Program-made: the position numbers and the translations under genes
In this document: positions 14,070-32,183 of the stretch, one piece after another
How positions within the stretch are numbered: position 1 is the stretch's first letter
How the letters are laid out: each line of letters begins with the position of its first letter
Notes under the pieces: model-generated
What the model saw: the letters and a program-made list of their open reading frames with translations, nothing else
Told to the model about the DNA's origin: nothing
Databases searched by the model: none
Assembly: GCA_002067405.1 (NCBI GenBank)
Contig: MVRP01000029.1
Location: 1-32,183 of the forward strand
Direction: 5' to 3'
DNA: 32,183 nt
Source: Syntrophorhabdaceae bacterium PtaU1.Bin034
GTDB taxonomy: Bacteria; Desulfobacterota_G; Syntrophorhabdia; Syntrophorhabdales; WCHB1-27

Positions 14070-15831
14070 TGTCGGGCTTGAGCCGAGACGCGATGCACGC
14101 GGGCGGCTTCTCGGCGTGGCCGGCTACATGAGGGAGATCACGAGCCGCAAGCAGATGGAAGAGAGGCTTCGTCAGGCCCATGACGAACTGGAAATGCGGG
14201 TTGAACAGAGGACATCAGAGCTGCAGGACGCATACGGGAAACTCGAGGCCGAGATCAACGAGAGAAAGCATACGGAACAGGAGCTGAAGCGGGTAATGAC
14301 GGCTATCAGCCAGTCGGGCGACAGTGTGCTCATAGTCGATACCGACGGCATCGTCCTTTACGCCAATCCTGCCTTTTTCAGTATGAGCGGTTACTCGGCC
14401 GGCGAAACGCTCGGCCGGAATGTCTCTTCCTTGAAGTCCCATCTCTCTGACGACGACCTGTACGAGACGGTGAGGGCCACTGTTAAAAACGGCAGGAGTT
14501 GGACGGGCCTCATAGCCGGAAAGAAGAAGAGCGGCAGTACATATGAAGTCGAAGCGACGGTCTCGCCGGTAAGGGATGACGAAGACAGGGTCACGAACTA
14601 CGTGACGGTTGGCCGGGATGTCACAGAAAAAAAGAAGCTCGAACGGCAACTCCGCCAGGCACAGAAAATGGAGGCCATCGGGACGCTCGCAGGTGGCATA
14701 GCACACGATTTTAACAACATTATTGCAGCCATTATCGGGTTTGCCGAAATGGCTATCGATGATACGGACGAGAACACGCAGATCCGTCGTTTCCTTGAAC
14801 AAATCCTCAAATCAGGGATACGGGGGCGGGACCTCGTCAAACAGATCCTCTCATTCAGCCGGGGGAGCGACATAGAACGGAGGCCGGTTCAGGTCTCCCT
14901 CATTGTAAAGGAAGCCCTGAAGCTGCTGCGCGCCTCCATTCCCGCTACCATCGAGATCCAACAGGATATCGACCCGGACTCGGGTATAGTCATGGCGGAT
15001 GCGACCGAGATACACCAGGTGGTCATCAATCTTGTAACCAATGCAGCCCACGCAATGCGGTCGAAAGGCGGTATATTGAAGGTGGCTGTCTGCAATACGG
15101 CCGGCGGGGTTGACGAGGGGTCAGGCCCGGCCGCGCTCGGCCCCGGTCGCTATCTCAGGTTGACCGTGAGCGATACTGGCCAGGGAATGGACAAGGGTAT
15201 TATGGAACGGATATTCGATCCCTTCTTCACTACCAAAGAAAAAGGGGAGGGGACCGGGCTGGGGCTTTCCGTCGTGCATGGAATCGTCCAATCGCACGAA
15301 GGGGTTATCACGGTCAGGAGCAAGCCGGGGAGGGGATCGACGTTCGAGGTCTATCTTCCGACGATAGAGGAGCCTTGCTCATCAGACGAGGATTTGGGCA
15401 CCATACCCGAAGGCAGGGAATCCATTCTTCTGATTGATGATGAGGAGACGTTGATCGAGATAGGAACGGAGATGCTGGAGCGGCTGGGGTATTCGGTCAC
15501 GGCAACAACAAACAGCATCGAGGCGTTGCGGATATTCAAAAAGAGGCCCCACAGCTTTGATCTCGTTATTACCGATCAGGCCATGCCGCGTATGAGCGGA
15601 CTTGAACTTGCGCGGGAAATGATTTCGGTCCGGGATGATATTCCCATCATCCTCTGCACGGGGTTCAGTGAGGCCGTGTCCAAAGAACAGGTCCCAAATC
15701 TGGGAATTCGGGAGTTTCTCCTAAAACCCCTGGTGAGGAAAGAGATGGCGGAGGCCATAAGACGGGTCCTGGACGGAGCAAAAGTACCTGTGCGGACGGT
15801 TCGGGCTGGCCAAATCCAAGGCAAGGAATAA
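14011..15831 (+). CDS. Hybrid histidine kinase, PAS-HisKA-HATPase-REC part (split by frameshift)
   Basis: C-terminal part of the same split sensor. From about residue 13 it completes the second PAS domain, followed by a coiled coil (AHDELEMRVEQRTSEL onward, 57-92), a third PAS (95-208), the kinase core with phospho-acceptor His232 in GGIAHDFNNI, the N-box around Asn344, DTGQGM (388-393), GTGLGL (414-419) and a receiver domain with phospho-acceptor Asp522 (VITDQAMP). No membrane segment is seen, so it is a cytoplasmic sensor. An ATG at 14011 could begin this part, but it lies before the frame junction and no good ribosome site is visible; without the N-terminal fragment the protein would still hold a full kinase core. 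The next gene is a paralogue only 37 bases on. Confidence 0.82.
   Translation: MWAGEWRSVLMRGGKKRYYDVGLEPRRDARGRLLGVAGYMREITSRKQMEERLRQAHDELEMRVEQRTSELQDAYGKLEAEINERKHTEQELKRVMTAISQSGDSVLIVDTDGIVLYANPAFFSMSGYSAGETLGRNVSSLKSHLSDDDLYETVRATVKNGRSWTGLIAGKKKSGSTYEVEATVSPVRDDEDRVTNYVTVGRDVTEKKKLERQLRQAQKMEAIGTLAGGIAHDFNNIIAAIIGFAEMAIDDTDENTQIRRFLEQILKSGIRGRDLVKQILSFSRGSDIERRPVQVSLIVKEALKLLRASIPATIEIQQDIDPDSGIVMADATEIHQVVINLVTNAAHAMRSKGGILKVAVCNTAGGVDEGSGPAALGPGRYLRLTVSDTGQGMDKGIMERIFDPFFTTKEKGEGTGLGLSVVHGIVQSHEGVITVRSKPGRGSTFEVYLPTIEEPCSSDEDLGTIPEGRESILLIDDEETLIEIGTEMLERLGYSVTATTNSIEALRIFKKRPHSFDLVITDQAMPRMSGLELAREMISVRDDIPIILCTGFSEAVSKEQVPNLGIREFLLKPLVRKEMAEAIRRVLDGAKVPVRTVRAGQIQGKE
14045..14051 (+). 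repeat. G7 homopolymer at the kinase frame break
   Basis: Seven G in a row, followed by C and five A. Reading GCG-GGG-GGG-CAA continues the N-terminal frame to a stop 18 bases later. Reading with one G fewer gives GCG-GGG-GGC-AAA-AAG and restores a full-length PAS hybrid kinase. Confidence 0.85.
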
Positions 15832-15868: not shown

Positions 15869-18511
15869 ATGAAAGAAACGGATCATAAAGACGTGGCCAA
15901 GCACACCGGGCAGACGGCGAACCCCGAGGAAACCTTGATGCCGGAACAGGATATGAAGGGAGGAAACGTGGATGCTGCAGTGGTTGCAAGGGATGAAGGA
16001 GGGCTTGGAGGTTGCGACGATCTGTGTCGTGTGGTAGTCGAGAGCATGAGAGAAGCAGCCGTGGTTGCCAGAGGCGACGGGACGATCATTTTCGGAAATG
16101 CCGGCTTTGCCCAAATGGTACGTCTGCCGCAGGAAAAGATTCTTGGCTCTAAAGTGTTCGACTTCCTTCCTTTTGAGGAGCGGGCGAGGTTCGAATCTAT
16201 ATTCGGGGGCTACGGAAACAATACGGGGAAGGGCGAGTTCAGTATTATTACGGGCAACGGCAATCTTCTTCCTGTCCATTTGTCGGGCAACAAAGTGCGT
16301 GCGGGAGATGCAGAGATCGTGTGTCTGGTCATGACGGATATTACCGTACGCAAGAGAGCAGAAGAGACCCTCCGAAGCTCTCACGAGGAGCTTGAAAATT
16401 CCGTTGCGGAGAGAAACAGGGAATTGACCGACGCCAACGAACGGTTGAAGAGAGAGGCCCGCGAGCGCGAACAGGCAGAGAAAAGCCTGAGGGAGAACGA
16501 GGAGTATTTTCGGCTTCTTATCGAAAATGCGTCCGACATGATAGTGGTGTTGAAAGAGGACGGGTCTGTCAGCTATGCCGGTCCTTCCGTGAGGCGAGTG
16601 CTGGGCTATTCGTCGAAGGAGTTCCTTCACAGGAATTTTCTCGATCTGGTGGTGGGCACGGACAGGGAAAGGGTGCGCGACCGTTTTGCTCAGGCCAGCC
16701 GGATACCGGGTTATACGATATCACTGGAGACGAGCGTTCAGCGCAAGGACGGCGGCTGGCGAACCATCGAAATAATGGGCAGGAACCTGCTCCACGATTC
16801 AAAAGTGGTTGGCATTGTCGTGAACGGGAGAGATATTACCGAGCGGAAGCACATGGAGGAAGAATTACGACGGGCGCACGACGAACTGGAAGCGAGAGTG
16901 GAAGAACGCACGTCCGAGCTCCGGAAGGCGTATGAGCGGCTCGAAGTTGAGATCAGGGAACACAAACAGGCGGAGGAAGAACGGGCCCGCCTTGCAACAG
17001 CCATTGAGCAGGGAGGCGACTGCGTCATCATTACCGACCGTCAGGGGACCATCCAGTATGTGAATCCCGCGTTCGAAAAAACGAGCCTTTACACCAGAGA
17101 AGAGGTAACAGGGCACCCCTTCGACATTTTGAAAGGCGAGAACCAGCACGATGCCTTTTGGGACGACATGTGGATTACCCTTGAAGGCGGCAATGTATGG
17201 GCCGGCCGTATCGGAAACCGCCGGAAGGACGGCGCTGCGTACGAGGTGGAAAGGACCATGTCGCCGATCAGGGATAACAACGGGAAGATTACGAACTACG
17301 TTTCCGTGGAGCGGGACATGACCGAGCAGGCCGGGCTGGAGTCTGAACTGAGACAGGCCCAGAAGATGCAGGCGATCGGAACGCTCGCCGGTGGCATTGC
17401 CCATGATTTCAACAACATCCTTGCCGCTATGATAGGGTTCACCGAGCTTGCCCTCGATGACGTCGAGAAAGGCACCCGGACAGCGAGGCACCTGGACCAT
17501 GTGCGCAAGGCCGGGTACCGGGGAAGAGAGCTTGTAAAACAGATCCTCACCTTCAGCAGACAGGGCGAGCAGGAAAAGAGGCCGGTACAGATGACCCCTA
17601 TCGTCAGGGAAGTGCTGAAGCTTATGAGGGCGTCTCTCCCTGCTACTGTTGAGATTCGCCAGAGGATGGAAACCGAGGAAGGGATCATCTTTGCCGATCC
17701 GGTGCAAATCCACCAGCTTCTCATCAATCTCTGTACCAATGCAGGACAGGCGCTGCGGGGTGAAAAAGGAGTGATTGAGGTGGGGTTGAGCGATTACGTC
17801 CTTTCCTCCGGAGAGAATCCGCCGCATCCTGATATGGAACCCGGTTCTTATGTCCGGCTTTCGGTGACCGATACCGGGCCCGGCATTGACGAGCTGACAA
17901 AGGACAGGATTTTTGAGCCTTTCTTTACCACGAGGCAGCCGGAGGCAGCCGGGATGGGCTTGTCGGTCGCCTATGGCATCGTAAAAAGCCATCACGGCTC
18001 CATTACTGTGGCCAGCACGCCCGGCAAAGGGGCTACCTTCAATATTTATTTCAAGAAACTGAAGGAAGCGGTGGTGGAGGAGAAGACGGCGAGGCCGGTA
18101 CTGCATGCAGCACGGGGAAAGGGACGCATCCTCTTCGTGGATGACGAGGAAGCCCTGGTGGAGATCGCAAAACAGATGCTGGAGCGTCTCGGGTACGAGG
18201 TTGTCGCGGAAAAAGACAGTGTCAAGGCGCTCAAGCAGTTCCAGAGGGACCCGGAAAAGTTCGACCTCGTGATCACGGATCAGACCATGCCGAACATGAC
18301 GGGTATCGAGCTCGCAAAAAAGCTGATGTCCATAAAGAAGGATATCCCTATCATTCTCTGCACGGGGTTCAGCGAAGTGATCTCGCCGGAGACGGCAAAG
18401 GCTATGGGCATACGGGAATTTGTGATGAAGCCCATAATCAAGAACGAAATGGCCGAAACCATCAAACGTGTGATCAGCGGCGAACGAGGGGGTAAGAAGA
18501 GACAGGTTTAG
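15869..18511 (+). CDS. Hybrid histidine kinase, PAS-PAS-PAS-HisKA-HATPase-REC
   Basis: Cytoplasmic multi-sensor hybrid kinase of 880 residues, a close paralogue of the preceding split gene. After a variable N-terminus come PAS1 (about 52-160), a coiled coil, PAS2 (210-325), a second coiled coil (AHDELEARVEERTSELR), PAS3 (372-488), the kinase core with His512 in GGIAHDFNNI, N-box around Asn624, DTGPGI (668-673), and a receiver with Asp804 (VITDQTMP). The G2 box is reduced to EAAGMGLSV where the paralogue has GEGTGLGLS, which may affect ATP binding. No output domain follows, so phosphate is presumably passed to a partner elsewhere. GGGGA lies before the ATG and the gap to the first kinase is 37 bases, so they probably share a transcript. 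Confidence 0.92.
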   Translation: MKETDHKDVAKHTGQTANPEETLMPEQDMKGGNVDAAVVARDEGGLGGCDDLCRVVVESMREAAVVARGDGTIIFGNAGFAQMVRLPQEKILGSKVFDFLPFEERARFESIFGGYGNNTGKGEFSIITGNGNLLPVHLSGNKVRAGDAEIVCLVMTDITVRKRAEETLRSSHEELENSVAERNRELTDANERLKREAREREQAEKSLRENEEYFRLLIENASDMIVVLKEDGSVSYAGPSVRRVLGYSSKEFLHRNFLDLVVGTDRERVRDRFAQASRIPGYTISLETSVQRKDGGWRTIEIMGRNLLHDSKVVGIVVNGRDITERKHMEEELRRAHDELEARVEERTSELRKAYERLEVEIREHKQAEEERARLATAIEQGGDCVIITDRQGTIQYVNPAFEKTSLYTREEVTGHPFDILKGENQHDAFWDDMWITLEGGNVWAGRIGNRRKDGAAYEVERTMSPIRDNNGKITNYVSVERDMTEQAGLESELRQAQKMQAIGTLAGGIAHDFNNILAAMIGFTELALDDVEKGTRTARHLDHVRKAGYRGRELVKQILTFSRQGEQEKRPVQMTPIVREVLKLMRASLPATVEIRQRMETEEGIIFADPVQIHQLLINLCTNAGQALRGEKGVIEVGLSDYVLSSGENPPHPDMEPGSYVRLSVTDTGPGIDELTKDRIFEPFFTTRQPEAAGMGLSVAYGIVKSHHGSITVASTPGKGATFNIYFKKLKEAVVEEKTARPVLHAARGKGRILFVDDEEALVEIAKQMLERLGYEVVAEKDSVKALKQFQRDPEKFDLVITDQTMPNMTGIELAKKLMSIKKDIPIILCTGFSEVISPETAKAMGIREFVMKPIIKNEMAETIKRVISGERGGKKRQV

Positions 18512-22400: not shown

Positions 22401-23858
22401 ATGATGTACCATATGAAACCGACTATCCTTGTACGCATGATTTTTGGCTATCTCGCCATATTCATTCCCGTCGTGGCAGTGAGTGCGTATACCTTTTCGC
22501 AGCTTTCCCTTTTTAGCAAAGTGACAGGCGGTATTTTACAGTTTGACCACCACATGAGGGATCTCGGGCAAAAGCTTGGGGATTCCATTCTCGTACAAAC
22601 ACGCTACGAAAGGAAATATATCATCACAAAGGAGAAAGAGCTCCACAGTCAATTTATGCTCGCCGGAAAAGATTTCAATAAAGATATCAACGAGGCGCTA
22701 TCCATAGCAGATACTGCGCGTAAAAGAGAAATGCTGAGCAGGGTAAAGAATCACTATGAGCGCTATATAGGTGCATTTAATAAAGAAGTGGAATTTATAA
22801 ACAAAAACAAAGCCTATTCTCAGAATCGGTTCAAAAGGGAAAAGGGGAATGCGGTAGACGCGATTTTGTGGGAGCTCAAAAACCTGGAGTTTTACACGGA
22901 GCAGGACACCTACGAAAGGATAAGACAGCTTGGGGAGGCAGGGGCAAAGGCGTATAAGATTGCGGTACTTGCTGGTGCAGGTTTCATGCTTTCGGGTATC
23001 ATGATCTCTTTTTTCATTACACGAAGCATCACCAGGCCCCTTTCCTTCATGAGAAAAAAGACGAGGCAGGTTGCCGGAGGGGATTTCGAGATCAGCCTGG
23101 ACATCTCGTCTCCGCCGGAGATACGGGATCTGGCGCAGGATTTTAATCTTATGTGCGAGAGGCTCAAAAAAATGGATACCATGAAGTCTGACTTTTTCTC
23201 ATTAATGGCACATGAGCTGCGCACACCCCTCGCCTCCATCAAAGAAGGAACCAATCTTTTGCTGGAAGGCGTAGGAGAGGATTTTAAAGAAAAACGGAAA
23301 GAGATCCTCACCATCATAGCCGAGGAAAGCAACCGCCTGACCGACCTGGTCAATTCGCTTCTGGATTTGTCGAAAATGGAGGCGGGGATGCTCGCGCTGA
23401 ACCTTGAAGAATCCGACATCCGCCCTCTTGTCGATAAAGCCGTTTCCGGGATGAGACCTCTGGCGATGACGAAAAACGTGAATATCAAGACGGAAATACC
23501 CCGTGATGTACCTTATGTCAAAATGGACGGAGAAAGGATTCTCCAGGCGCTGAGGAATTTGATCGGGAATGCCGTAAAGTTCACCCCGGGAGGTGGTTAT
23601 ATCACGATATCCGTCCAACCCACGGAAAAGGGGGTGAGGGTCTCCGTGGCAGATACAGGTCCCGGCATACCGGAAGAGGATTTAAACGTGATCTTTGATA
23701 AGTTCCGGCAGGCTGCCATGACGAGCTATGCTAAAATTAAGGGAACAGGCTTGGGTCTTGCCATTGTTAAACACATCATAAATGCTCACGGAGGTAAGAT
23801 TTGGGTAGAGAGCGAAACAGGACATGGAAGTACCTTCATCTTTCTGTTGCCTGCATAA
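22401..23858 (+). CDS. Membrane sensor histidine kinase (GlrK/QseE-like)
   Basis: Inner-membrane sensor of 485 residues. It has TM1 (about 11-33), a helical periplasmic sensor (35-185), TM2 (187-207), HAMP (208-260), a HisKA domain with phospho-acceptor His271 in SLMAHELRTPL, and HATPase boxes Asn390, DTGPGI (418-423) and GTGLGL (448-453). The gene order kinase, TPR lipoprotein, NtrC-type regulator matches GlrK-QseG-GlrR of enterobacteria, an envelope-related system, and the regulator resembles GlrR at its C-terminus. The periplasmic part has no known ligand-binding motif. Starts at 22401, 22404 and 22413 are all possible; no ribosome site is clear. The 3' end overlaps the lipoprotein gene by 58 bases. 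Confidence 0.9.
   Translation: MMYHMKPTILVRMIFGYLAIFIPVVAVSAYTFSQLSLFSKVTGGILQFDHHMRDLGQKLGDSILVQTRYERKYIITKEKELHSQFMLAGKDFNKDINEALSIADTARKREMLSRVKNHYERYIGAFNKEVEFINKNKAYSQNRFKREKGNAVDAILWELKNLEFYTEQDTYERIRQLGEAGAKAYKIAVLAGAGFMLSGIMISFFITRSITRPLSFMRKKTRQVAGGDFEISLDISSPPEIRDLAQDFNLMCERLKKMDTMKSDFFSLMAHELRTPLASIKEGTNLLLEGVGEDFKEKRKEILTIIAEESNRLTDLVNSLLDLSKMEAGMLALNLEESDIRPLVDKAVSGMRPLAMTKNVNIKTEIPRDVPYVKMDGERILQALRNLIGNAVKFTPGGGYITISVQPTEKGVRVSVADTGPGIPEEDLNVIFDKFRQAAMTSYAKIKGTGLGLAIVKHIINAHGGKIWVESETGHGSTFIFLLPA
23790..23795 (+). promoter_or_regulatory. Ribosome binding site of the lipoprotein, inside the kinase gene
   Basis: GGAGGT lies five bases before TTG 23801 and within the kinase coding sequence. 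It is the evidence for a TTG start, which gives a complete signal peptide with lipobox. Confidence 0.7.
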
Positions 23859-24394
23859 TCTCCATCTCTCTTGCCGGCTGCTCTACGCTGAAAGAAATGG
23901 AGGCACGAAGGGAGACCCGTGAACACCTCATCACGGCAAGGGAATCCCTTGACAAAGGGGATTACGAGGGGTGCCTGAAAGAAAACGAGAAAGTCCTCTC
24001 ATTGTCTGATAATGCTCCTCCTGCGGACGAAGCCCTCTTTAATGCAGGGCTCGTCTACGTCCATTACGGATATACCAAAAGGGACCATCAGAAATCGCTC
24101 AACTACTTCAACAGACTGGTGAAAGCCTTTCCGCAGAGCCCGTTTGCCGGGCAGGCCAGAATATGGATAGGGATGCTTCAGGAGAACGAGAGAATAAGCA
24201 AAGAAAACGAGAGACTGGGCAGGGAGAACGAGAGAATAAACAGAGAAATTGAAGAGTTGAACAGGACCATAAGGAAATTTCAACAGGAGAATCAAAGATT
24301 GAGCAGAGAAATTGAAGAGTTGAACAGGACCATAAGGAAATCGACGCAGGTCGACATAGAGATAGACGAGAAAAAGAAGGAGCTTTCAAAATGA
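23801..24394 (+). CDS. TPR/coiled-coil lipoprotein between kinase and regulator (QseG/YfhG-like position)
   Basis: Predicted lipoprotein of 197 residues. A basic n-region (RERNRTWK) and hydrophobic core end in lipobox LAGC with Cys27. Residues 35-125 look like TPR-type helical hairpins (LITARESLDKGDYEGCLKE, ALFNAGLVYVHYGY, FPQSPFAGQARIWIG), as in YfiO/YbgF-like proteins. Residues 128-195 are a highly charged coiled coil with repeated ENERISKENERL units and a near-exact 21-residue duplication. The start is TTG with a strong internal ribosome site, overlapping the kinase by 58 bases; its stop overlaps the regulator start as ATGA. In enterobacteria the lipoprotein in this position (QseG) tunes the kinase, and I infer the same here. 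Confidence 0.83.
   Translation: MGRERNRTWKYLHLSVACIISISLAGCSTLKEMEARRETREHLITARESLDKGDYEGCLKENEKVLSLSDNAPPADEALFNAGLVYVHYGYTKRDHQKSLNYFNRLVKAFPQSPFAGQARIWIGMLQENERISKENERLGRENERINREIEELNRTIRKFQQENQRLSREIEELNRTIRKSTQVDIEIDEKKKELSK
24241..24340 (+). repeat. Exact 37-bp direct repeat encoding coiled-coil heptads
   Basis: The same 37 bases (beginning CAGAGAAATTGAAGAG) occur at 24241-24277 and 24304-24340. The period of 63 bases equals 21 residues, or three heptads. Identity at third positions points to a recent duplication inside the lipoprotein coiled coil. Confidence 0.85.
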
Positions 24395-25773
24395 CCGCCT
24401 TGTCATCAAAAAAGATCTTGGTGGTGGATGATGATGGTAACTTTTTGAAATTGATCCGTATGAGGCTTGAGCTGGCAGGTTATGAAGTGACCACGGCCCT
24501 GAACGAAGATGAAGCGATAGCCAGGGCCAGGGAGGAGACCTTTGACCTTTCCATCCTTGACCTCAAGCTCGTCCATAAAGACGGCATCTCTTTGATGGAG
24601 GAGATGCATTCGATCAACCCCTATGTGCCCATCATCATTCTCACTGCCCACGGAAGCATTGAAAGCGCGGTGGAAGCGACGAAGAAGGGTGCTTTTAATT
24701 TTCTCAACAAGCCCTTTGATCCTGAAGAGCTGCTCCTGCAAATAGAAAAAGCAATGGAGAATCAGAGGCTCGTCTCTGAGGTGAGAAGGCTTGAGGGGCT
24801 TCTCAGAGAGAAATATGATTTTCAGAACATTATCGCAAGAAGCGAAAAGATGCAGAAGGTCCTGGAGTTGGTATCCCGCATCGCCGGGACCGATTCCACC
24901 ATTTACCTCTCCGGAGAAAGCGGTACCGGCAAGGAGGTCATCGCAAAGGCAATCCACCTTGCCAGCGGAAGAAGAGAAAAACCCTTTGTGGCAATCAATT
25001 GTGCCGCCATCCCTGAAACGCTCCTGGAGAGCGAGCTTTTCGGCTATGAAAAGGGGGCGTTTACCAGTGCGACGAGGACCCATAGAGGGTTATTTGTCCA
25101 GGCACATCAGGGAACCATCTTTCTGGACGAGATCGGCGATATGCCTCTCTCCATTCAGGCAAAACTCCTCAGGGTCCTTCAGGAGAAGACGTTTTATCCC
25201 CTGGGAAGCGGAAAACCGGTGGAAGTGGATGCAAGGGTGATCGTTGCGACAAATAAGGATCTGGAGGCCGAGGTGAAAAACGGCTCCTTCCGCGAGGACC
25301 TCTTCTACAGAATTCATGTGGTGCCTGTGGACCTTCCTCCCTTGCGGGAGAGGAAAGAGGATATCCCCCTTCTGGCGGAACATTTCATGAGGGAAATCAG
25401 CCAAAGGATGAAAAAGGAGATAAAGGGCATCTCGCCCATGGCGATGCAGAAGCTCATGCTCTACGACTGGCCCGGAAACGTGCGGGAGCTGGAGAACACC
25501 ATTGAGCGTGCAGTTGCCATAACCCAGCATGATGTCATAAGCGAAGAGATTGTCCTCCCCACAAAGGACCTCCCGGCGGAATCGTTAAAACCCTTTAAAG
25601 AAGCGGTGGAAGAGTTCAAAAGGGGATACGTTGTCCGCCTCCTCGAATTCACGAAAGGCAATGTGAGCAAGGCGGCGGACCTGGCAGGAAAGTATCGGGC
25701 CGATTTTTACAATCTCGTCAAAAAACACAACCTCAAACCGGAAGATTTCAAAAACCTCGATAAAGAAAAATAG
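24391..25773 (+). CDS. Sigma-54-dependent response regulator, NtrC family (GlrR/QseF-like)
   Basis: Enhancer-binding transcription activator of 460 residues. The receiver has Asp13-Asp14, phospho-acceptor Asp57, Thr85 and Lys107. The AAA+ domain has Walker A GESGTGKE (175-182), Walker B FLDEIGD (244-250) and arginine-finger region FREDLFYRI. The sigma-54 contact loop reads GAFTSA (222-227) instead of GAFTGA. The C-terminal Fis-type helix-turn-helix (about 404-452: FKEAVEEFKRGYV, LLEFTKGNVSKAADLAGKYRADFYNLVKKHNLKPEDFK) closely follows the GlrR pattern as I remember it. It overlaps the lipoprotein stop as ATGA, with AAGGAG upstream. The two sigma-54 promoters immediately downstream are its most likely targets. 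Confidence 0.93.
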   Translation: MTALSSKKILVVDDDGNFLKLIRMRLELAGYEVTTALNEDEAIARAREETFDLSILDLKLVHKDGISLMEEMHSINPYVPIIILTAHGSIESAVEATKKGAFNFLNKPFDPEELLLQIEKAMENQRLVSEVRRLEGLLREKYDFQNIIARSEKMQKVLELVSRIAGTDSTIYLSGESGTGKEVIAKAIHLASGRREKPFVAINCAAIPETLLESELFGYEKGAFTSATRTHRGLFVQAHQGTIFLDEIGDMPLSIQAKLLRVLQEKTFYPLGSGKPVEVDARVIVATNKDLEAEVKNGSFREDLFYRIHVVPVDLPPLRERKEDIPLLAEHFMREISQRMKKEIKGISPMAMQKLMLYDWPGNVRELENTIERAVAITQHDVISEEIVLPTKDLPAESLKPFKEAVEEFKRGYVVRLLEFTKGNVSKAADLAGKYRADFYNLVKKHNLKPEDFKNLDKEK

Positions 25774-25800
25774 TCCCCGGTACGTCTATGCCTCACTCTG

Positions 25801-25850
25801 AAATTCCATACACTTCGGGATGTCGCCAGCGTATGATAATCCATACGAAA
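25801..25850 (+). promoter_or_regulatory. Upstream activator element pair, copy A
   Basis: Two CCATAC-containing elements: AAATTCCATACACTTCGGG (25801-25819) and TAATCCATACGAAA (25837-25850), with their CCATAC cores 35 bp apart. Both are repeated exactly at copy B, 801 bp on. The second CCATAC lies 93 bp before the sigma-54 -24 element. They are probable binding sites for the NtrC-family regulator encoded just upstream. A GTATG arm at 25831 makes a dyad with the second CATAC in this copy only. Confidence 0.75.
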
Positions 25851-25902
25851 CAGTTACCTTTGAAGTGTGTCCGGGAACCCTGATTGACAGTTTTCCCTTA
25901 GA

Positions 25903-25915
25903 TATCACGTCATTC
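25903..25915 (+). promoter_or_regulatory. IHF-like site, copy A
   Basis: TATCACGTCATTC matches the IHF consensus WATCAANNNNTTR at 7 of 9 specified positions. It lies 31 bp before the sigma-54 -24 element, the same offset as a perfect match in copy B. Confidence 0.45.
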
Positions 25916-25931
25916 TGAAACGCTACCTTTT

Positions 25932-25949
25932 TCTGGCATACCCTTTGCT
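25932..25949 (+). promoter_or_regulatory. Sigma-54 promoter of the small exported protein gene
   Basis: TGGCAT-accct-TTGCT (25934-25949) carries the -24 GG and -12 GC with ten bases between them and agrees with the TGGCAC-N5-TTGCW consensus in all but one position. The 18 bases 25932-25949 are identical to the second promoter at 26733-26750. The inferred transcript start leaves a leader of about 135 bases before the ATG at 26096. The rest of the 25774-26095 gap shows no gene. Confidence 0.88.
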
Positions 25950-26095
25950 TTCTACTACCGAGCAACTACACGTCTTAAGAGAGAGGGGGTGAGGGTTAAA
26001 TTGGACTGCAGGGATCAACTGGACTCTCCGAACCGGTGGAAGTCTGAAGGCCGGCGAAAGGGCTGATCCTAATTCTTTTTAAGGAGGTTAAACGT

Positions 26096-26338
26096 ATGAT
26101 GATCAGAAGGTTGATAGTGCTGGTAATGGTTGCCGCATTTACCTTTGGCGTGGCAGGGATGGGCTTTTCGGCCCAGGAGGTAAAAGGAACAGTTGCGAAA
26201 ATTGAAGGCAACAAGGTAACCGTTCTGGATAACGCGGGTAAACAGACAACGGTGACTGTTCAGGACCCGATGACGTTGCAGGGTCTCAAGGTAGGCGACA
26301 ATGTTTCACTAAGTAACGGCCAGATAGGAAAGAGATAG
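26096..26338 (+). CDS. Small exported beta-rich protein of unknown function
   Basis: An 80-residue preprotein with a typical signal peptide (MMIRRLIVLVMVAAFTFG, likely cleaved after GFSA before QEVKG). The mature part is about 55 residues and strand-rich (VKGTVAKIEGNKVTVLDNAGKQ, a VTVQDP stretch, and GLKVGDNVSLSNGQIG), reminiscent of small OB-like periplasmic proteins such as DUF5666-type domains; the match is only by pattern. No cysteine is present. GGAGG lies eight bases before ATG 26096. It has its own sigma-54 promoter with the same control elements as the exopolysaccharide operon, so it is probably made under the same conditions and may act in the envelope or matrix. Confidence 0.75.
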   Translation: MMIRRLIVLVMVAAFTFGVAGMGFSAQEVKGTVAKIEGNKVTVLDNAGKQTTVTVQDPMTLQGLKVGDNVSLSNGQIGKR

Positions 26339-26393
26339 GAGGTGTGAATCGTTCCAACGTCGTACTGGTCCTTCAAGTCATCGATTCTAAGGT

Positions 26394-26427
26394 CAGCAGG
26401 GTGAAGGCGTTCGCCTTCACCCTGCTG
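26394..26427. terminator. Perfect 15-bp hairpin after the small exported protein gene
   Basis: CAGCAGGGTGAAGGC (26394-26408) pairs perfectly with 26413-26427 around the loop GTTC. There is no T-run on the plus strand, so it may stabilise the 3' end of the short sigma-54 transcript, or terminate weakly, rather than act as a classical terminator. Confidence 0.55.
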
Positions 26428-26509
26428 TAAGTCGAAAATAACACATCCTAAAACACACCCCAAATAATAAACCGCCTTGCTGCTTGCAGCGGGTATCGGA
26501 CGTACGCTT

Positions 26510-26536
26510 GTCACGCCGGATCAAGTCCGGTATGAC
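26510..26536. repeat. REP-like dyad element
   Basis: GTCA-cg-CCGGA-tcaag-TCCGG-ta-TGAC is an imperfect palindrome of the dispersed extragenic type (REP-like), related in style to the CCGGA...TCCGG repeats scattered in many proteobacterial genomes. Only one copy is in this window. The remaining sequence from 26430 to 26600 shows nothing I can support. Confidence 0.4.
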
Positions 26537-26601
26537 GGTTTACGCCGCAAGCCGCGGATGCCCCCGGCTGAGGGATTTGGTCCATCCCGCCGCATCATCT
26601 A

Positions 26602-26651
26602 AAATTCCATACACTTCGGGGTATCTTTGGTGCACAGTAATCCATACGAAA
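26602..26651 (+). promoter_or_regulatory. Upstream activator element pair, copy B
   Basis: AAATTCCATACACTTCGGG (26602-26620) and TAATCCATACGAAA (26638-26651) repeat copy A exactly, with the same 35-bp core spacing and the same 93 bp from the second core to the -24 element. The bases between the elements are not conserved, so the match is not a simple recent duplication of the whole block. Confidence 0.78.
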
Positions 26652-26703
26652 GTAAATTCTCATCATAAAGAAATGAGCAAAATATTAAGTAATTTTACTT
26701 TAA

Positions 26704-26716
26704 TATCAATATGTTA
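26704..26716 (+). promoter_or_regulatory. IHF site, copy B
   Basis: TATCAATATGTTA fits the IHF consensus WATCAANNNNTTR at every specified position. It is placed between the activator elements and the sigma-54 promoter, 31 bp before the -24 element, where a DNA bend would bring bound activator to polymerase. Confidence 0.65.
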
Positions 26717-26732
26717 GTAACACCAGCCTTCC

Positions 26733-26750
26733 TCTGGCATACCCTTTGCT
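26733..26750 (+). promoter_or_regulatory. Sigma-54 promoter of the exopolysaccharide operon
   Basis: TGGCAT-accct-TTGCT (26735-26750) is identical to the promoter at 25934 and ends 118 bases before the ATG of the tyrosine-kinase-like gene. With the activator elements and IHF site upstream, this is a complete enhancer-dependent promoter. Confidence 0.9.
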
Positions 26751-26867
26751 CTTCTTCTTTTCACTTTTCCCATAATTTGCTGCTCGTGCTCTACAGGCAA
26801 TAACCCTTTTCAAAAGAAGAGGGTGAAAGTGGCAGAGAGTCAGGAGCCATAATGAAGAGGAAGACCC

Positions 26868-27605
26868 ATGAGTAAGCTGTACGAAGCCTTGAAAAATGCC
26901 GATGCTGAGCGAAAGACGATCACGGAAGAAGAAATTGCCCCCCGGCAGAGACTCGCAAGAAGATCCTGGGGCTGGACTTCCCAGAACAGGAAAAGTCTTG
27001 AAAGAATCGACGATCTCTGTCAGCGCATCGACTCCCTTCTTCCGAGCCCCGAGCGGAAAGTCCTTCAATTCATGGGCTCGCGAAAAGGAGAAGGGACATC
27101 CACCGTGGTAAGGCAATTTGCCACAATCTCCGCTTTGAACATGCACAAATCGGTGCTCATCCTTGATGCGGACAGGGACAGCCCCGCTCAGCATGCTCTT
27201 TTCGATGTCCACCCCCAATATTGCCTTCACGACGCAACCACGGACGGCGGCCCCCTGGAGAGGGCCTATTCTCAAGCGGGCATTCCCAAACTCTCAGTGT
27301 GCCTGGTTTCGGAAAATTCCGTCTCTCCCGCACAGGTGCTGAAGGGCAGCGGGCTTTGGGCTACCTTCAGGATCCGCTTCGACCTTGTCGTGATCGACTC
27401 CCCGCCACTCGAGGGATCGTCCGACGGCTTGGCCCTGGCGCGGAATGCCGACGGCGTGGTGCTCGTCATAGAGGCCGAGAAGACCCGCTGGCCTGTTGTC
27501 CAAACGCTGAGGGATTCCATCATCGACTCCGGAGGGAATATCCTGGGGGTGGTGTTCAACAAGCGGCGCTATCACATACCGGGATGGATCTATAAATGGC
27601 TATGA
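26868..27605 (+). CDS. CpsD/CapB-type tyrosine autokinase-like ATPase of exopolysaccharide synthesis
   Basis: Cytoplasmic P-loop partner of a Wzc/GumC-type chain-length protein; such kinases control polymer length by cycles of tyrosine phosphorylation. The Walker A region is GSRKGEGTST (70-79): the usual lysine of GKS/T is threonine, while the lysine earlier in the loop (RKGEG) remains. Walker A' reads SVLILDADRDSP (95-106) and Walker B FDLVVIDSPP. The C-terminus has only two tyrosines (RRYHIPGWIYKWL) rather than a long tyrosine cluster, so autokinase activity is uncertain. The N-terminal MSKLYEALKNAD is typical of the subgroup. First gene of the sigma-54-driven operon; its stop overlaps the next gene. 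Confidence 0.88.
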   Translation: MSKLYEALKNADAERKTITEEEIAPRQRLARRSWGWTSQNRKSLERIDDLCQRIDSLLPSPERKVLQFMGSRKGEGTSTVVRQFATISALNMHKSVLILDADRDSPAQHALFDVHPQYCLHDATTDGGPLERAYSQAGIPKLSVCLVSENSVSPAQVLKGSGLWATFRIRFDLVVIDSPPLEGSSDGLALARNADGVVLVIEAEKTRWPVVQTLRDSIIDSGGNILGVVFNKRRYHIPGWIYKWL

Positions 27606-28336
27606 TAGGACTTTTCATAAAAAATAATCCTCTCGCAAAAGCGATTTTGTCGCTCTCTTTAGCGGTGGGATTGGTTGCGTGTGCCGCCCCTGCGGCACAC
27701 AACCCCGACCGGGTTATGGAGATGGAGTCCCGGACCGGCGGAACAGCCGCCGCACAGGCAGATTACAAGATCCAGGCGGGCGACCAGCTTGATATAAAGT
27801 TCTTCTACAACAGCGAGTTGAATGAGGCCCTTGTGGTTCGTCCTGACGGCCGGATCTCGCTGCAGCTCCTCGGTGCGATCAAGGTCCAGGGCCTGACACC
27901 TTCGGAACTGGAAGCGATGCTCAAAAAGCGGTACGTTTCGCGCCTGGCAAAACCGGAAGTCACCGTTATCGTCCGGTCCTTTAATATGCATAAGGTCTTT
28001 GTTGACGGGCATGTCGTCAAGCCCGGAGGATTTCCCCTGGTCGGATTCATGACCGTGATGCAATCCATTTCCCAGGCCGGAGGGTTGAGGGATGGTGCAA
28101 GGAAGAAAGAGATCCTTGTCATTCGCCGGGATGATCTGGGGAAACCGACTGTCCTGAAGGTGAATCTGGATAAAGCAATGGAGGGAGACATGGAGGAGGA
28201 TATCTACCTTGCTCCCTTTGATGTGGTCTTTGTACCGAAGTCCGCTATAGGAAACGTCAATCAGTTTGTCGATCTCTACATCAGAAGGAATTTGCCGATC
28301 AATACAAACGTCGGTTACGCGGTACCGAATTATTAA
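27596..28336 (+). CDS. Wza-like polysaccharide export lipoprotein
   Basis: Outer-membrane export channel subunit. The signal peptide ends in a lipobox-like LVAC (Cys29). Then come the polysaccharide-export domain (about 55-130: DYKIQAGDQLDIKFFYNSEL, VVRPDGRISLQLLG) and an SLBB-type domain (about 137-170: KVFVDGHVVKPGGFPLVG, AGGLRDGARKKEILVIRR). At 246 residues it is the short form found with GumC-type partners. ATG 27596 and ATG 27602 are both possible; the second overlaps the previous stop as ATGA. The C-terminus lacks a long amphipathic helix of the Wza type, so pore formation may differ from the E. coli protein. Confidence 0.92.
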   Translation: MAMIGLFIKNNPLAKAILSLSLAVGLVACAAPAAHNPDRVMEMESRTGGTAAAQADYKIQAGDQLDIKFFYNSELNEALVVRPDGRISLQLLGAIKVQGLTPSELEAMLKKRYVSRLAKPEVTVIVRSFNMHKVFVDGHVVKPGGFPLVGFMTVMQSISQAGGLRDGARKKEILVIRRDDLGKPTVLKVNLDKAMEGDMEEDIYLAPFDVVFVPKSAIGNVNQFVDLYIRRNLPINTNVGYAVPNY

Positions 28337-28366: not shown

Positions 28367-29893
28367 GTGGAACAGAACAGAACAACAGTGACCTTAAGGG
28401 ATTTTCTTACCATCCTGTTCAAGCACAAATGGAAAATCCTTGCTACCTTCGCAGCGGTGGTAGGGACCGTTACCATCGTCACCATAACGACCCCTCCGAT
28501 CTATCAGGCCACGTCGACCGTACTGGTGAAATTCGGAAGGGAGAACATCTATCATTCCGAAGTCGGACAAAGCGGGTCCTGGATTTCCCTCGGTCACGAA
28601 GAAATGGTGAATTCGGAAATCGAGATCCTCGCGAGTCGCGATCTCGCTGGAAGGGTCGTGAAGTCCATGGGTCCCGAGGTTCTCTATCCCAAGCTGGCAA
28701 GGAATCTGCGGGATAAAGGAAAATCCGAAGAATCGCTTGCGGCCGCCGCCGTTTCGGTGTTCAAGGATTCTCTCTCGGTGGAAGGGGTGAAAAAGTCAAA
28801 CGTCATCAGGGTCTCTTTTCAGCACGACAGTCCCAAGATCGCAGCTCAAGGGGCAAACCTCCTGGTTGACTTCCTCAAGGAAAAACACCTTGAGGTTCAC
28901 AGCGATCCCAAAAGCTCCTTTATTGAGCAGGAACTTGCGGCTTACCAAAGAGGCCTGAAAGAATCGGAAGACAACCTTGCGGCGTATCGGCAAAAGTATC
29001 AGACTTTTTCTCTCCCGGAACAGAAGACCCTGCTTCTACAGCAGCGTACGAATTTCGATACCGTGCTGAAGAGTACCCGGAGCCAGGTGGCGGAGCTCCG
29101 GCAAAAACTGAGCGCTCTCATCAAGCAGATGCGGAATGTCCCCGAAGACATACCGCTATCGACCGTGACGGATCGACAGGATATCGTCGACAGGGTGAAA
29201 AATACCCTTCTTGATCTCCAGTTGAAAGAGCAGGACCTGTTAACGAAATATACGGAAAACGAGCCCCTGGTGGTGAATATACGGAAAGAAATTGCCCTTG
29301 CGAAAGAGTATCTGGAGAGACAGGAAAGGGATCCGAAGAAGGTACAAACAACCGGCAGAAATGTCGTCCGCCAGGAGCTGGAAAAGGAAATGATCAAAAC
29401 GCAGGCCGAGCTTGCAGCGCAACTGGCCAAGGCTTCGGCGCTCAGCGCGCAGGTCGGCCAGGTCCACAAAGAGCTGCAGAACCTTTCCCTCAGGGAGAAT
29501 GAGCTTGACCGATTGCTCCGGGAACGGGAGATGAACGAGAAGAACTACAGAACTTACGTTGAAAAGGCGAAAGAGGCTCGAATTCTCGACGATATGAATC
29601 TGCGCAAAATGGCCAATGTCAGTGTTGTACAGAAAGCGGACGTACCCCTCAGCCCGATCAGGCCCCGAAAAACTCTCTATGTGGCGTTCTCCTTCATTTT
29701 CGGCGTGATCGGGGGAATAGCTTTCGCATTTCTTTCCGAATACACCGCGCAGAGATTCACCACCCCCGAACAGGTTGAAAAGCGGCTTAACCTTGGCGTC
29801 CTGGTTGCCCTGCCCCATGGCTCCCTCGCTCGTTCCCTGCAAAGTGCAGGCAAAATTAAACTGAGACATCCATCAGAGGTGGAAAGATGCTGA
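28367..29893 (+). CDS. GumC/Wzz-family polysaccharide chain-length protein
   Basis: Inner-membrane co-polymerase of 508 residues with TM1 (about 22-42), a Wzz domain (PPIYQATSTVLVKFGRE), a long periplasmic coiled coil (about 185-400, rich in E, K, L and Q) and TM2 (about 433-455: LYVAFSFIFGVIGGIAFAFL), preceded by the proline-rich PLSPIRPRKT typical of the family. There is no kinase domain: the ATPase is the separate first gene of this operon. The start is a GTG with a GAGG upstream. The end overlaps the glycosylphosphotransferase gene by 7 bases. Confidence 0.92.
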   Translation: MEQNRTTVTLRDFLTILFKHKWKILATFAAVVGTVTIVTITTPPIYQATSTVLVKFGRENIYHSEVGQSGSWISLGHEEMVNSEIEILASRDLAGRVVKSMGPEVLYPKLARNLRDKGKSEESLAAAAVSVFKDSLSVEGVKKSNVIRVSFQHDSPKIAAQGANLLVDFLKEKHLEVHSDPKSSFIEQELAAYQRGLKESEDNLAAYRQKYQTFSLPEQKTLLLQQRTNFDTVLKSTRSQVAELRQKLSALIKQMRNVPEDIPLSTVTDRQDIVDRVKNTLLDLQLKEQDLLTKYTENEPLVVNIRKEIALAKEYLERQERDPKKVQTTGRNVVRQELEKEMIKTQAELAAQLAKASALSAQVGQVHKELQNLSLRENELDRLLREREMNEKNYRTYVEKAKEARILDDMNLRKMANVSVVQKADVPLSPIRPRKTLYVAFSFIFGVIGGIAFAFLSEYTAQRFTTPEQVEKRLNLGVLVALPHGSLARSLQSAGKIKLRHPSEVERC

Positions 29894-31299
29894 AAAAACA
29901 CAGTCGATCACTGGAAAAGCTACTCTCTTTCATCGATATCTTCACCATCATCCTTTCTTTGTTATCTGTTTCATACTGGATGTTCGGTGCTGATTTCATC
30001 AATGTTTTCAGTCAGCCGGTCCAATACCAGATTCTTTTTCTCGTGTACATGATATCCTGGCTCTACCTGTCTCACCGTTTTCACCTTTACGCTTCCAGAA
30101 GGACCTCCAGATTCAGGAAAGAAATATGGGAGATCGTCAAGACGACCTCCCTGAGCCTTGCGGTGGCGTCCGTGCCGGCATTTTTCATCCGCGAGTTTCC
30201 TCTCAGCAGGATCTTCCTCCTTTATCTCTGGGCCTCCCAGGTCCTGCTGCTTATTTCATTCAGGTTCATTCTCAGAAAGACCCTTCAATATGTGCGGAGC
30301 CACGGGTACAACTACAGAAACGTCCTGATCATCGGCCGCAATTCGCGGTCAGCGGAAATGGTAAAGAGGATCAAAGCCTCCCCCGAGCTTGGATTGCGGA
30401 TTCTGGGATTCGTCGATTCCCCGAACGGCGGGAAGCGACAAGGAGTGAAAGACGGTCTGATGGGGACTGTGGACGACCTGGAGACGGTACTGAAAAGGAA
30501 CGTCGTCGATGAAGTGCTTATCTTCCTGCCCATCAAGTCCTTTTACCTGGAGATCCAGGAGATCATTCACATCTGCGAAACGGCGGGCGTGGAGGCGAAA
30601 ATCCCGACAGACCTATTTACCCGCAAGATCGCACGATCCACGATCTCTCACTATGACGGGGTGCCGGTCATCGATCTGTATACCAGTCCCAAGATGAGCG
30701 TGCAGCTTTTTACGAAGCGGCTCATTGATGTGCTGCTCTCCGCCTCTTTGCTTACCCTCCTTTCCCCGCTTTTCCTCCTCGTATCACTCATGGTTAAAAT
30801 AACCTCCCCGGGCCCCGTCTTCTTCGTCCAACGCCGGGTTGGCTATAACGGCCGGACATTCGGTTGCTTCAAATTCAGGACCATGGTCCAAAACGCAGAA
30901 GAACGAAAGAAAGAACTCCTTGGTCTCAATGAGTTGGCGGGGCCCGTCTTCAAAATAAAGAACGACCCCCGCGTGACACCGCTGGGTCGATATCTGCGCA
31001 AGGCGAGCATCGATGAGCTTCCTCAGTTGATCAATGTCTTCCTTGGGGACATGAGCCTCGTGGGACCGAGGCCGCCCATCCCGAGCGAGGTGGATCAGTA
31101 CGATCTGCGTACGCTGAGGCGTTTAAGCATGAGGCCGGGGATCACCTGTCTCTGGCAGGTCAACGGGAGAAACAGCATCCCCTTCGACAAGTGGATGGAG
31201 CTCGATCGCAAGTATATCGACGAATGGTCGTTGGGTCTCGACGCGAAGATCCTGCTGAAAACAATTCCGGCGGTTCTTAAGGCGTCGGGAGCGTCGTAA
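29887..31299 (+). CDS. Polyprenyl glycosylphosphotransferase (WcaJ-like initiating sugar transferase)
   Basis: Starts exopolysaccharide repeat-unit synthesis by moving a sugar-1-phosphate from a UDP-sugar to undecaprenyl phosphate at the inner membrane. Four N-terminal hydrophobic segments (within residues 15-135) are followed by a Rossmann-like CoA-binding region (NVLIIGRNSRSAEMV), a fifth membrane segment (about 279-305) and the bacterial sugar transferase domain with CFKFRTM, DPRVTPLGRYLRKASIDELP (DELP near 375), LGDMSLVGPRPP and the GITCLWQVNGR stretch. At 470 residues it is full length. The sugar (glucose, galactose or other) cannot be told from the sequence. Confidence 0.94.
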   Translation: MLKKHSRSLEKLLSFIDIFTIILSLLSVSYWMFGADFINVFSQPVQYQILFLVYMISWLYLSHRFHLYASRRTSRFRKEIWEIVKTTSLSLAVASVPAFFIREFPLSRIFLLYLWASQVLLLISFRFILRKTLQYVRSHGYNYRNVLIIGRNSRSAEMVKRIKASPELGLRILGFVDSPNGGKRQGVKDGLMGTVDDLETVLKRNVVDEVLIFLPIKSFYLEIQEIIHICETAGVEAKIPTDLFTRKIARSTISHYDGVPVIDLYTSPKMSVQLFTKRLIDVLLSASLLTLLSPLFLLVSLMVKITSPGPVFFVQRRVGYNGRTFGCFKFRTMVQNAEERKKELLGLNELAGPVFKIKNDPRVTPLGRYLRKASIDELPQLINVFLGDMSLVGPRPPIPSEVDQYDLRTLRRLSMRPGITCLWQVNGRNSIPFDKWMELDRKYIDEWSLGLDAKILLKTIPAVLKASGAS

Positions 31300-31346: not shown

Positions 31347-32183
31347 ATGACAAAAATCAAAGTACTACACCTCATAAAAACATTGAGTCTGGGAGGGGCC
31401 GAGAAGAACCTGCTCAACCTCGTGAGTGCCCTTGACCGGGACCGTTTTGAAATCCATGTGGGCTATTCTTACGGCGGGGAATTTGAGGAGCAATTCGGAC
31501 GCCTCGGGATAAAACTGCTCAAATTTTCCGAGACTCGTGACAAAATCAAAAGCTTTGCGACGTTCAGAATCATCCCCAGGCTGGGGAACTACATCATGAA
31601 GAACCGGATCCAGGTCGTCCACAGCCATTGTTTCAATGCCCATGTCTGGGGCATGGTAGCGGCAATGATGACCGGCACAAAACTCGTCGAGCACGTTCAC
31701 GATGCGCGGTACCTGGACCCCGGGGATCTCGCGACCAGGCAATGCCTTACCGCACAGATCAGGTACGCGAAGTACCTGAGGGGGGTTTCCGACAGGGTCG
31801 TTGTCCTTTCGGAGCACTACCGCAGACGTCTGCTCCAAAACGGTTCCGGCAACCATCGTGTACGGAAAATACTGAACGGGATACCGGTCAACGGCGCCGT
31901 GAAGGTCGACGAAGAAGCAGCAGCGCGCCTGAGAAGGGAGCTCGGCCTTGCGGAAAAGGACCAGGTGATCCTGACGAGCGGGCGGATGTCTGCCGAAAAG
32001 AACATGAATTTGATTTTCCGCATCGCACCCCTTGTGACACGCGCAGTGCCGAACGCCGTTTTTCTTCTCTCGGGAAACGGCCCCCGGTTCGACGAGTTCA
32101 AGGCGAAGAGCCGGGAACTGAAAGACTGCCGGATTGAGCTGATCGGGTACTATCCGGAGATTCTCGATCTCCTCGCGATCTCC
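31347..32183 (+). CDS. GT4-family glycosyltransferase, cut by the window end
   Basis: Open frame of 279 codons with no stop before the window ends. The N-terminus (KVLHLIKTLSLGGAEKNLLN) is the nucleotide-fold start of GT-B enzymes, with HSHCFNAHVWGMVAAMMTG and VEHVHDAR in the acceptor half. The second half begins the GT4 donor domain (TSGRMSAEKNMNLIFRIAP, FLLSGNGPRFDEFK, IELIGYYPEILDLLAIS). It presumably adds a later sugar to the lipid-linked repeat begun by the preceding gene. The final E-x7-E region is outside the window. ATG 31347 has no strong ribosome site; it lies 47 bases after the previous gene. Confidence 0.88.
   Translation, partial: MTKIKVLHLIKTLSLGGAEKNLLNLVSALDRDRFEIHVGYSYGGEFEEQFGRLGIKLLKFSETRDKIKSFATFRIIPRLGNYIMKNRIQVVHSHCFNAHVWGMVAAMMTGTKLVEHVHDARYLDPGDLATRQCLTAQIRYAKYLRGVSDRVVVLSEHYRRRLLQNGSGNHRVRKILNGIPVNGAVKVDEEAAARLRRELGLAEKDQVILTSGRMSAEKNMNLIFRIAPLVTRAVPNAVFLLSGNGPRFDEFKAKSRELKDCRIELIGYYPEILDLLAIS

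Follow-up and report, generated by a model that had tools for sequence, protein, structure and literature searches.

Introduction

Within the window, our term for the whole stretch of 32,183 nucleotides analysed here, a sigma-54 promoter module occurs twice behind a regulator gene that ends at position 25773, the second copy being shifted by 801 bp relative to the first. The locus raises two questions: whether the adjacent regulator controls both modules, and whether their equal spacing reflects selection or copying. A sequence-only reading of this DNA had favoured control of both by that regulator and selection on the spacing, and had proposed a regulon based on the hexamer CCATAC that links envelope sensing to an exopolysaccharide (EPS) operon and a small exported protein.

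In E. coli, according to the accessible part of PMC6075780, QseF acts through three upstream activating sequences (UAS) with the consensus TGT-N12-ACA, is assisted by IHF and drives the sigma-54 promoters of glmY and rpoE, while QseG is required for QseE activity. The QseF site is also given as TGTCN10GACA in the available text of PMC8745638. The QseF-like family is already known to be wider, since 117 such activators were counted across genomes (PMC3162934, available portion), and EPS under sigma-54 activators is known from regulome work on Desulfovibrio vulgaris (accessible sections of PMC3333781 and PMC4641369).

Results

The genes and sites described between 22401 and 32183 lie on the plus strand. 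The two modules share an 18-bp promoter core, TCTGGCATACCCTTTGCT (25932-25949 and 26733-26750), and the -24/-12 element TGGCATACCCTTTGCT (25934..25949 in copy 1, 26735..26750 in copy 2) matches the sigma-54 promoter pattern GG-N10-GC with TGGCAY...TTGC in both. Upstream, the repeats AAATTCCATACACTTCGGG (19 identical bases) and TAATCCATACGAAA (14 identical bases) recur at the same offset of 801, and the distances from UAS1 to UAS2 (35 bp) and from UAS2 to the -24 element (93 bp), measured from the CCATAC cores and TGGCAT, are the same in copies 1 and 2. On recheck, the coordinates, the identities of 18, 19 and 14 bases, the two spacings and the offset given by the sequence-only reading all proved correct. 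Eighteen 12-mers were repeated within 25701-26900, every one at offset 801, and no single offset gathered more than four in any of 300 dinucleotide shuffles, which rules out a chance origin of the repeat.

Identity at this offset reached 39/51 in the UAS block (25801-25851) and 19/23 in the promoter (25930-25952), compared with 30/78 for the linker and, for the flanks, 20/101 and 33/148. The earlier statement that the sequence between the elements is mostly unrelated thus holds for the flanks, which are near chance, but not entirely for the linker, where both copies carry an IHF-like site at -31: TATCACGTCATTC in copy 1 (25903..25915, 7/9 consensus letters) and TATCAATATGTTA in copy 2 (26704..26716, 9/9), scored against the consensus WATCARNNNNTTR from the available text of PMC7962754.

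We scored the UAS with a symmetrised matrix built from 17 relatives with the window left out, and set a threshold of 11 for relatives; the underlying sites had initially been picked by eye in the regulator-downstream regions, the same regions that were later tested. In copy 1, UAS1 (ACTCTGAAATTCCATACA, 25795..25812) has a good right half and a weak left half and scored 10.7 at -139, and UAS2 (CGTATG-ATAATC-CATACG, 25830..25847) is a perfect 6-bp inverted repeat and scored 14.8 at -104. In copy 2, UAS1 (CATCTAAAATTCCATACA, 26596..26613) scored 9.6 at -139 and UAS2 (TGCACAGTAATCCATACG, 26631..26648), with a degenerate left half, 8.7 at -104. Both copy 2 values lie under the threshold, and the case for these putative sites rests on their identity with copy 1.

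The relatives' matrix reads TGTAKG-N6-CMTACA, which contains TGT-N12-ACA. CCATAC is therefore the right half of an 18-bp dyad of the TGT-N12-ACA type, and the description of the regulon as CCATAC-based has to be dropped; the hexamer was rejected as a binding unit, being one half of the dyad. All four window sites keep the dyad geometry, and the outer triplets TGT and ACA occur together in none of them.

The kinase-lipoprotein-regulator operon

According to the window's open reading frames, 22401-25773 holds genes for a sensor kinase, a lipoprotein and a regulator, in that order and with overlapping ends. The kinase (22401..23858) is QseE/GlrK-like and has HAMP, HisKA and HATPase domains by Pfam. 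Its sensor part matched that of kinases from loci of GlrR proper in hhalign (Prob 97.3, E 2.4e-11, 191 columns, 16 versus 15 sequences). The QseG-like lipoprotein (23801..24394), identified by its lipobox and a profile match, has TPR-like and coiled-coil parts. Its lipobox Cys27 was invariant across the 17 aligned rows (of 18 references, L143 and L140, a spurious case with masked letters, were omitted), and the same alignment matched the lipoproteins of GlrR-proper loci with Prob 95.1 and E 3e-8 over 98 columns, L003 and L008 having yielded no lipoprotein. Against the Pfam YfhG model (PF13942) it gave 17.0 bits and missed the cut-off of 27. The lipoprotein gene also contains two 21-bp tandem repeat arrays (24185-24330), and the window protein is 197 aa long, compared with 162 aa for the reading frames used from G216 and G347.

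The regulator (24391..25773) is a QseF/GlrR-like sigma-54 response regulator with REC, AAA+ and HTH parts, as identified by Pfam, NCBIfam and its tree position. In an NCBIfam scan of nine window proteins its top model was GlrR (482.4 bits, cut-off 763 missed); AtoC, PEP_resp_reg and NtrC came next and likewise missed their cut-offs. Membership of the PrsR or NtrC families was rejected, with TIGR02915 (PEP_resp_reg, PrsR) at 435.4 bits against a cut-off of 502.6 and TIGR01818 (NtrC, NR-I) at 421.8 against 558.6. In a quick 120-row tree, from which one of 80 loci was excluded by length, the window regulator and 40 relatives formed a clade of 41 (SH-aLRT 95) that was sister to 22 GlrR-proper rows (SH-aLRT 100), the joint group of 63 rows being supported at 99. 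These results uphold the earlier assignment of the protein ending at 25773 to the NtrC-type sigma-54 activators and place it in a GlrR/QseF superclade.

In the sigma-54-contacting loop the window regulator has GAFTSA and is the sole such row among the 41 clade members; GAFTGA was found in 32/41, and in three rows our pattern failed to capture the motif. Elsewhere, one row among 57 outside the window regulator's clade had GAFTSA.

Taken together, the sensor-domain and lipoprotein profile matches and the regulator tree indicate that the window's kinase, lipoprotein and regulator are homologous to QseE, QseG and QseF, though the strict family cut-offs were missed. The proposed envelope link is supported to the extent that these counterparts are themselves envelope-linked, and sensing of the envelope by the window system is accordingly a prediction from the sensor and lipoprotein matches.

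Conservation of the module behind the regulator

Relatives were drawn from 395 genomes of the phylum to which the genome with a 71% identical TypA belongs, from 17 genomes of the G216 family and from 46 of the G347 order. Regulator identity to the window was 88% in G216, 80% in G347 and 68% or less in the remainder, and a contig search with the regulator gave relatives of at most 49% identity among the matches listed (at least 588). By tblastn, the kinase-lipoprotein-regulator order was found in most of 40 relative loci.

We then asked how often the module follows the regulator. Within 600 bp after the regulator gene, a sigma-54-like site accompanied by a UAS scoring at least 11 was present at 22/45 loci from 40 genomes (leave-one-out matrix), a set that excludes the window and L101 (the same locus as L138) and in which several loci are second copies within one genome. 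The controls gave 1/45 on the reverse strand and 2/900 in mononucleotide shuffles. By this test the module was absent from 23/45 loci, among which L128 offered just 203 bp, L144 fails by range only and L121 seems to be a weak example; some failing loci (L132, L146, L148 and L149) have the module elsewhere in the locus. Minus-strand matches inside regulator genes were discarded as chance coding matches beside real intergenic dyads. At 80 loci of other taxa, a UAS of at least 11 accompanied 4/517 sigma-54-like sites. Of perfect dyads of the form TGTAKG-N6-CMTACA, 11 distinct ones occurred in 17 genomes, eight of them at most 5 kb from the regulator gene and six no further than about 110 bp from its stop, and the backward control pattern matched 14 times in all, counted regardless of place.

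These data bear on the possibility that the sites are bound by an enhancer-binding protein of the PrsR or NtrC type encoded elsewhere, the adjacent QseF-like protein being a bystander. The PEP_resp_reg and NtrC models do score well on the regulator, and exopolysaccharide is the usual target of PrsR. Both models nevertheless stay below their cut-offs, the tree puts the regulator beside GlrR, the module and the perfect dyads track the regulator gene across genomes, and the dyad fits TGT-N12-ACA. We consider control from elsewhere very unlikely. For control by the adjacent regulator, the linkage at 22 of the 45 loci is favourable, and the scores of the copy 2 UAS are not.

Spacing of the elements

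Across species, UAS2 positions fell into classes, which we assigned by hand. In the window's class six relatives have UAS2 at -105/-106 and L134 has it at -102, the window copies being at -104; in a second class it lies at -90 to -92 and in a third at -69 to -71. Pairs of UAS 35 bp apart occur twice in the window, in G216 and at another site of G347. Since the UAS2 distances cluster tightly across species and 35-bp pairs recur, the spacing between UAS and promoter is, on this comparison, under constraint, whatever the origin of the window pair. The IHF-like site behaved similarly: for the window's class, which has nine promoters, -31 was the best of 72 offsets (z 5.2), with at least 7/9 letters in seven promoters and no site in two, and the best positions were -29 in the second class (z 3.5) and -18 in the third (z 4.2, the rows being closely related).

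The second module of the window pair may be a duplicate of the first whose equal spacing was inherited and which may be decaying rather than selected. The identical 35- and 93-bp spacings and the long exact matches extending beyond the dyad are what duplication would leave, and the degenerate left half of the copy 2 UAS2 and the low copy 2 scores are compatible with decay. However, the UAS, the IHF-like site and the promoter were retained although identity in the flanks and in most of the linker has fallen close to chance, UAS2 distances are clustered and 35-bp pairs recur in other genomes, and the IHF-like site of copy 2 is better than that of copy 1. We regard duplication with inherited spacing as a serious possibility, if not one that we would back. 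The earlier phrase "selection on spacing, not just copying" thus lacks support in that form: the comparison across species shows constrained spacing, but the window pair may also stem from an old duplication.

Other promoters in G347 carried UAS as well. At L273 and L278 (contig C121 of G347), the regulator operon has three promoters with UAS around it, among them the 35-bp pair at L273 1300/1335. Among the 25 G347 sigma-54 promoters that were scored, the one at L247 (contig C96) has the best UAS pair, spaced by 33 bp, and precedes a gene for a small helix-turn-helix protein (about 100 aa).

The exopolysaccharide operon

Promoter 2 is followed by a series of EPS genes. The first encodes a BY-kinase-like ATPase (26868..27605; TIGR01007 73.3 bits, cut-off of 108 missed), followed by a Wza-like polysaccharide export protein (27596..28336; PF02563, SLBB), a Wzz/GNVR chain-length protein (28367..29893; PF02706, PF13807), a polyprenyl glycosylphosphotransferase (29887..31299; TIGR03025 430.2 bits, cut-off 295.55) and a glycosyltransferase truncated by the window end (31347..32183; PF13439, PF00534).

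In the 40 relative loci, none of the window's small protein, Wza or Wzz was found adjoining the regulator by tblastn, in flanks that were uneven and in some cases shorter than 0.5 kb; a sugar transferase homolog (36-39%) lay 5.0 kb from the regulator in L153 and 8.6 kb in L147. Wzz orthologs matched in 11/14 genomes. A sigma-54-like site lies upstream of the Wza gene in G216 (Wzz 55%), G322 (49%) and G449 (40%, a partial case), and 1.5 kb of sequence contained no convincing sigma-54 site in G423, G426, G428 and G347 (Wzz 37-38%). Because sigma-54-like sites precede the orthologs in G216, G322 and G449, sigma-54 control of the EPS operon seems to predate the operon's position next to the regulator.

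G216 and G347 together contained 104 strict sigma-54 sites, 66 (G216) and 25 (G347) of which were scored for UAS. The G216 EPS promoter, with a score of 14.9, ranked top of the 66, a set that does not include the regulator-downstream promoter, and was among the 4/242,853 positions that reached at least 14. It has just one UAS, which lies at -94 and has the form TAGG/CCTTCA. The EPS promoters of G322 and G449 had no UAS. The polysaccharide operon as a target is therefore partly backed, by copy 2 and by the sigma-54-like sites in the three genomes, whereas a UAS is present in G216 and absent from G322 and G449; for control of the operon by this regulator outside the window, G216 alone is the basis.

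It could also be that the first module alone works for the regulator, and that the EPS operon answers to another sigma-54 activator and is located here by chance. The low UAS scores of copy 2, the sigma-54-like sites of G322 and G449 that come without UAS, and the fact that among the loci compared the operon adjoins the regulator only in the window would all agree with this. Such an arrangement is hard to reconcile with the 19, 14 and 18 identical bases that copy 2 shares with copy 1, in register, or with the first rank of the G216 EPS promoter, and we think it unlikely.

The small protein and other genes behind the module

Behind copy 1 lies a gene for an 80-aa exported protein of the ExtJ family (26096..26338; NF040942 53.6 bits, cut-off 52.5), with six other homologs at 58-73%. 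Its structural model is a small beta-barrel of low confidence (pLDDT 66.7), and a fold search with it retrieved nothing from the PDB with an E of 0.001 or lower. Homologs were found in 14/395 genomes at E 1e-6. At their six best loci a UAS of at least 13 was found in none, and one locus had a sigma-54-like site without UAS. Conservation among relatives with the genes divides: the pairing of regulator and module was recovered at the 22 loci above, and that of module and small protein was not, since the ExtJ homologs elsewhere stand without the module (at all six loci scanned).

Between the two transcription units lies a 15-bp hairpin (26394..26427; RNA fold z -6.3 for 26340-26470). A scan with a consensus terminator found no terminator-like site, and scanning the window against Rfam produced 0 hits at the gathering score.

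The gene behind the conserved promoter varies between clades. A glycine-zipper lipoprotein follows it in L122 and L140-L145 and a BON lipoprotein in L129; L121, L123-L126, L138 and L156 have a stand-alone receiver (L124 judged by its final part only), and G216 and G347 have dissimilar proteins. One glycine zipper, one BON and one receiver were confirmed by Pfam and the others were judged by eye. In the group that has it, the stand-alone receiver might serve as a phosphate sink or feed back on the kinase.

Discussion

Collectively, the elements and their spacing, the homology of the three proteins and the conservation of the module behind the regulator in relatives make it quite likely that a QseE/QseG/QseF-like three-component system controls the two adjacent sigma-54 promoters. 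Counting against this explanation are the sub-threshold UAS of copy 2, the GAFTSA loop of the regulator and the EPS promoters of G322 and G449 that have no UAS, as well as the incomplete outer triplets of all four window sites, the 23 of 45 loci that failed the module test, the initial choice of sites by eye and the ExtJ loci elsewhere that stand without the module. By analogy with E. coli, the kinase, gated by the lipoprotein, would phosphorylate the response regulator. As the conserved sites and their linkage to its gene suggest, the regulator would then bind two 18-bp dyads, UAS1 and UAS2, upstream of each promoter; IHF would bend the DNA at the conserved -31 site, and the activator would open the sigma-54 polymerase at the -24/-12 element, the established mechanism of this family. 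Promoter 1 would thereby yield the small exported ExtJ-family protein and promoter 2 the EPS operon.

On these comparisons the window system is most probably a variant of the QseEGF/GlrR plan, with the same layout and a different predicted target. It resembles QseE/QseG/QseF (GlrK/QseG/GlrR) of E. coli in the kinase-lipoprotein-regulator order, which is similar at GlrR-proper loci, and in the homology of all three proteins, and it resembles the glmY promoter, as far as the accessible part of PMC6075780 describes it, in having several UAS with the TGT-N12-ACA geometry, an IHF-like site and a sigma-54 promoter adjoining the operon. In contrast to E. coli, where the target is the sRNA glmY upstream, the predicted window targets are protein-coding and lie downstream of the operon; there are two UAS per promoter and not three, with halves extended to TGTAKG/CMTACA; and the regulator belongs to a sister clade of GlrR proper, below the NCBIfam GlrR cut-off.

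The PrsK/PrsR PEP-CTERM system is similar in that a sigma-54 activator is linked with exopolysaccharide genes, and XrtA-type Wza and Wzz models match the window proteins below cut-off. It differs in that the regulator misses the TIGR02915 cut-off, the end of the small protein shows by sight no PEP motif, and the kinase has no PrsK match among the 25 models listed. The sigma-54 response regulators of Desulfovibrio vulgaris (DAP-chip, regulome) come from the same broad lineage, but in the available sections of PMC3333781 and PMC4641369 neither a QseF-type system nor a TGT-N12-ACA motif was found. Our literature search found no publication on a QseEGF-type system of the window's lineage, and the module may still be described.

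A more general idea is that the enhancer-IHF-promoter module acts as a socket anchored behind qseEGF in this deltaproteobacterial sister clade of GlrR, in which the plugged-in gene is exchanged (an ExtJ-like barrel, a glycine-zipper lipoprotein, a BON lipoprotein, a stand-alone receiver and others) and which can be copied in place to bring an EPS operon under the same envelope signal. We offer this tentatively, as an idea whose chances are fair but which is slightly more apt to fail than to hold. If true, the proposed control would provide a predicted binding code (TGTAKG-N6-CMTACA), a fixed-spacing promoter layout and a target list, and would cover an uncharacterised branch of an envelope-signalling system that, in the sources as available, has so far been studied in enteric bacteria. 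It would also be a case in which a regulator holds on to the promoter next to it and the output gene differs from clade to clade, so that the evolution of regulon content could be tested directly.

Two further observations concern other places. In a myxococcal locus (L077 4559, Myxococcales), a sigma-54-like site is preceded by TGTCTGGAAATCCAGACA and TGTCTGGAAAACCCGACA, which have the TGTCN10GACA form published for enteric QseF. Elsewhere in the window, two hybrid PAS-kinase genes (14011-15831 and 15869-18511) adjoin each other and look like paralogs, because 14-mers are repeated between them at offset 2704.
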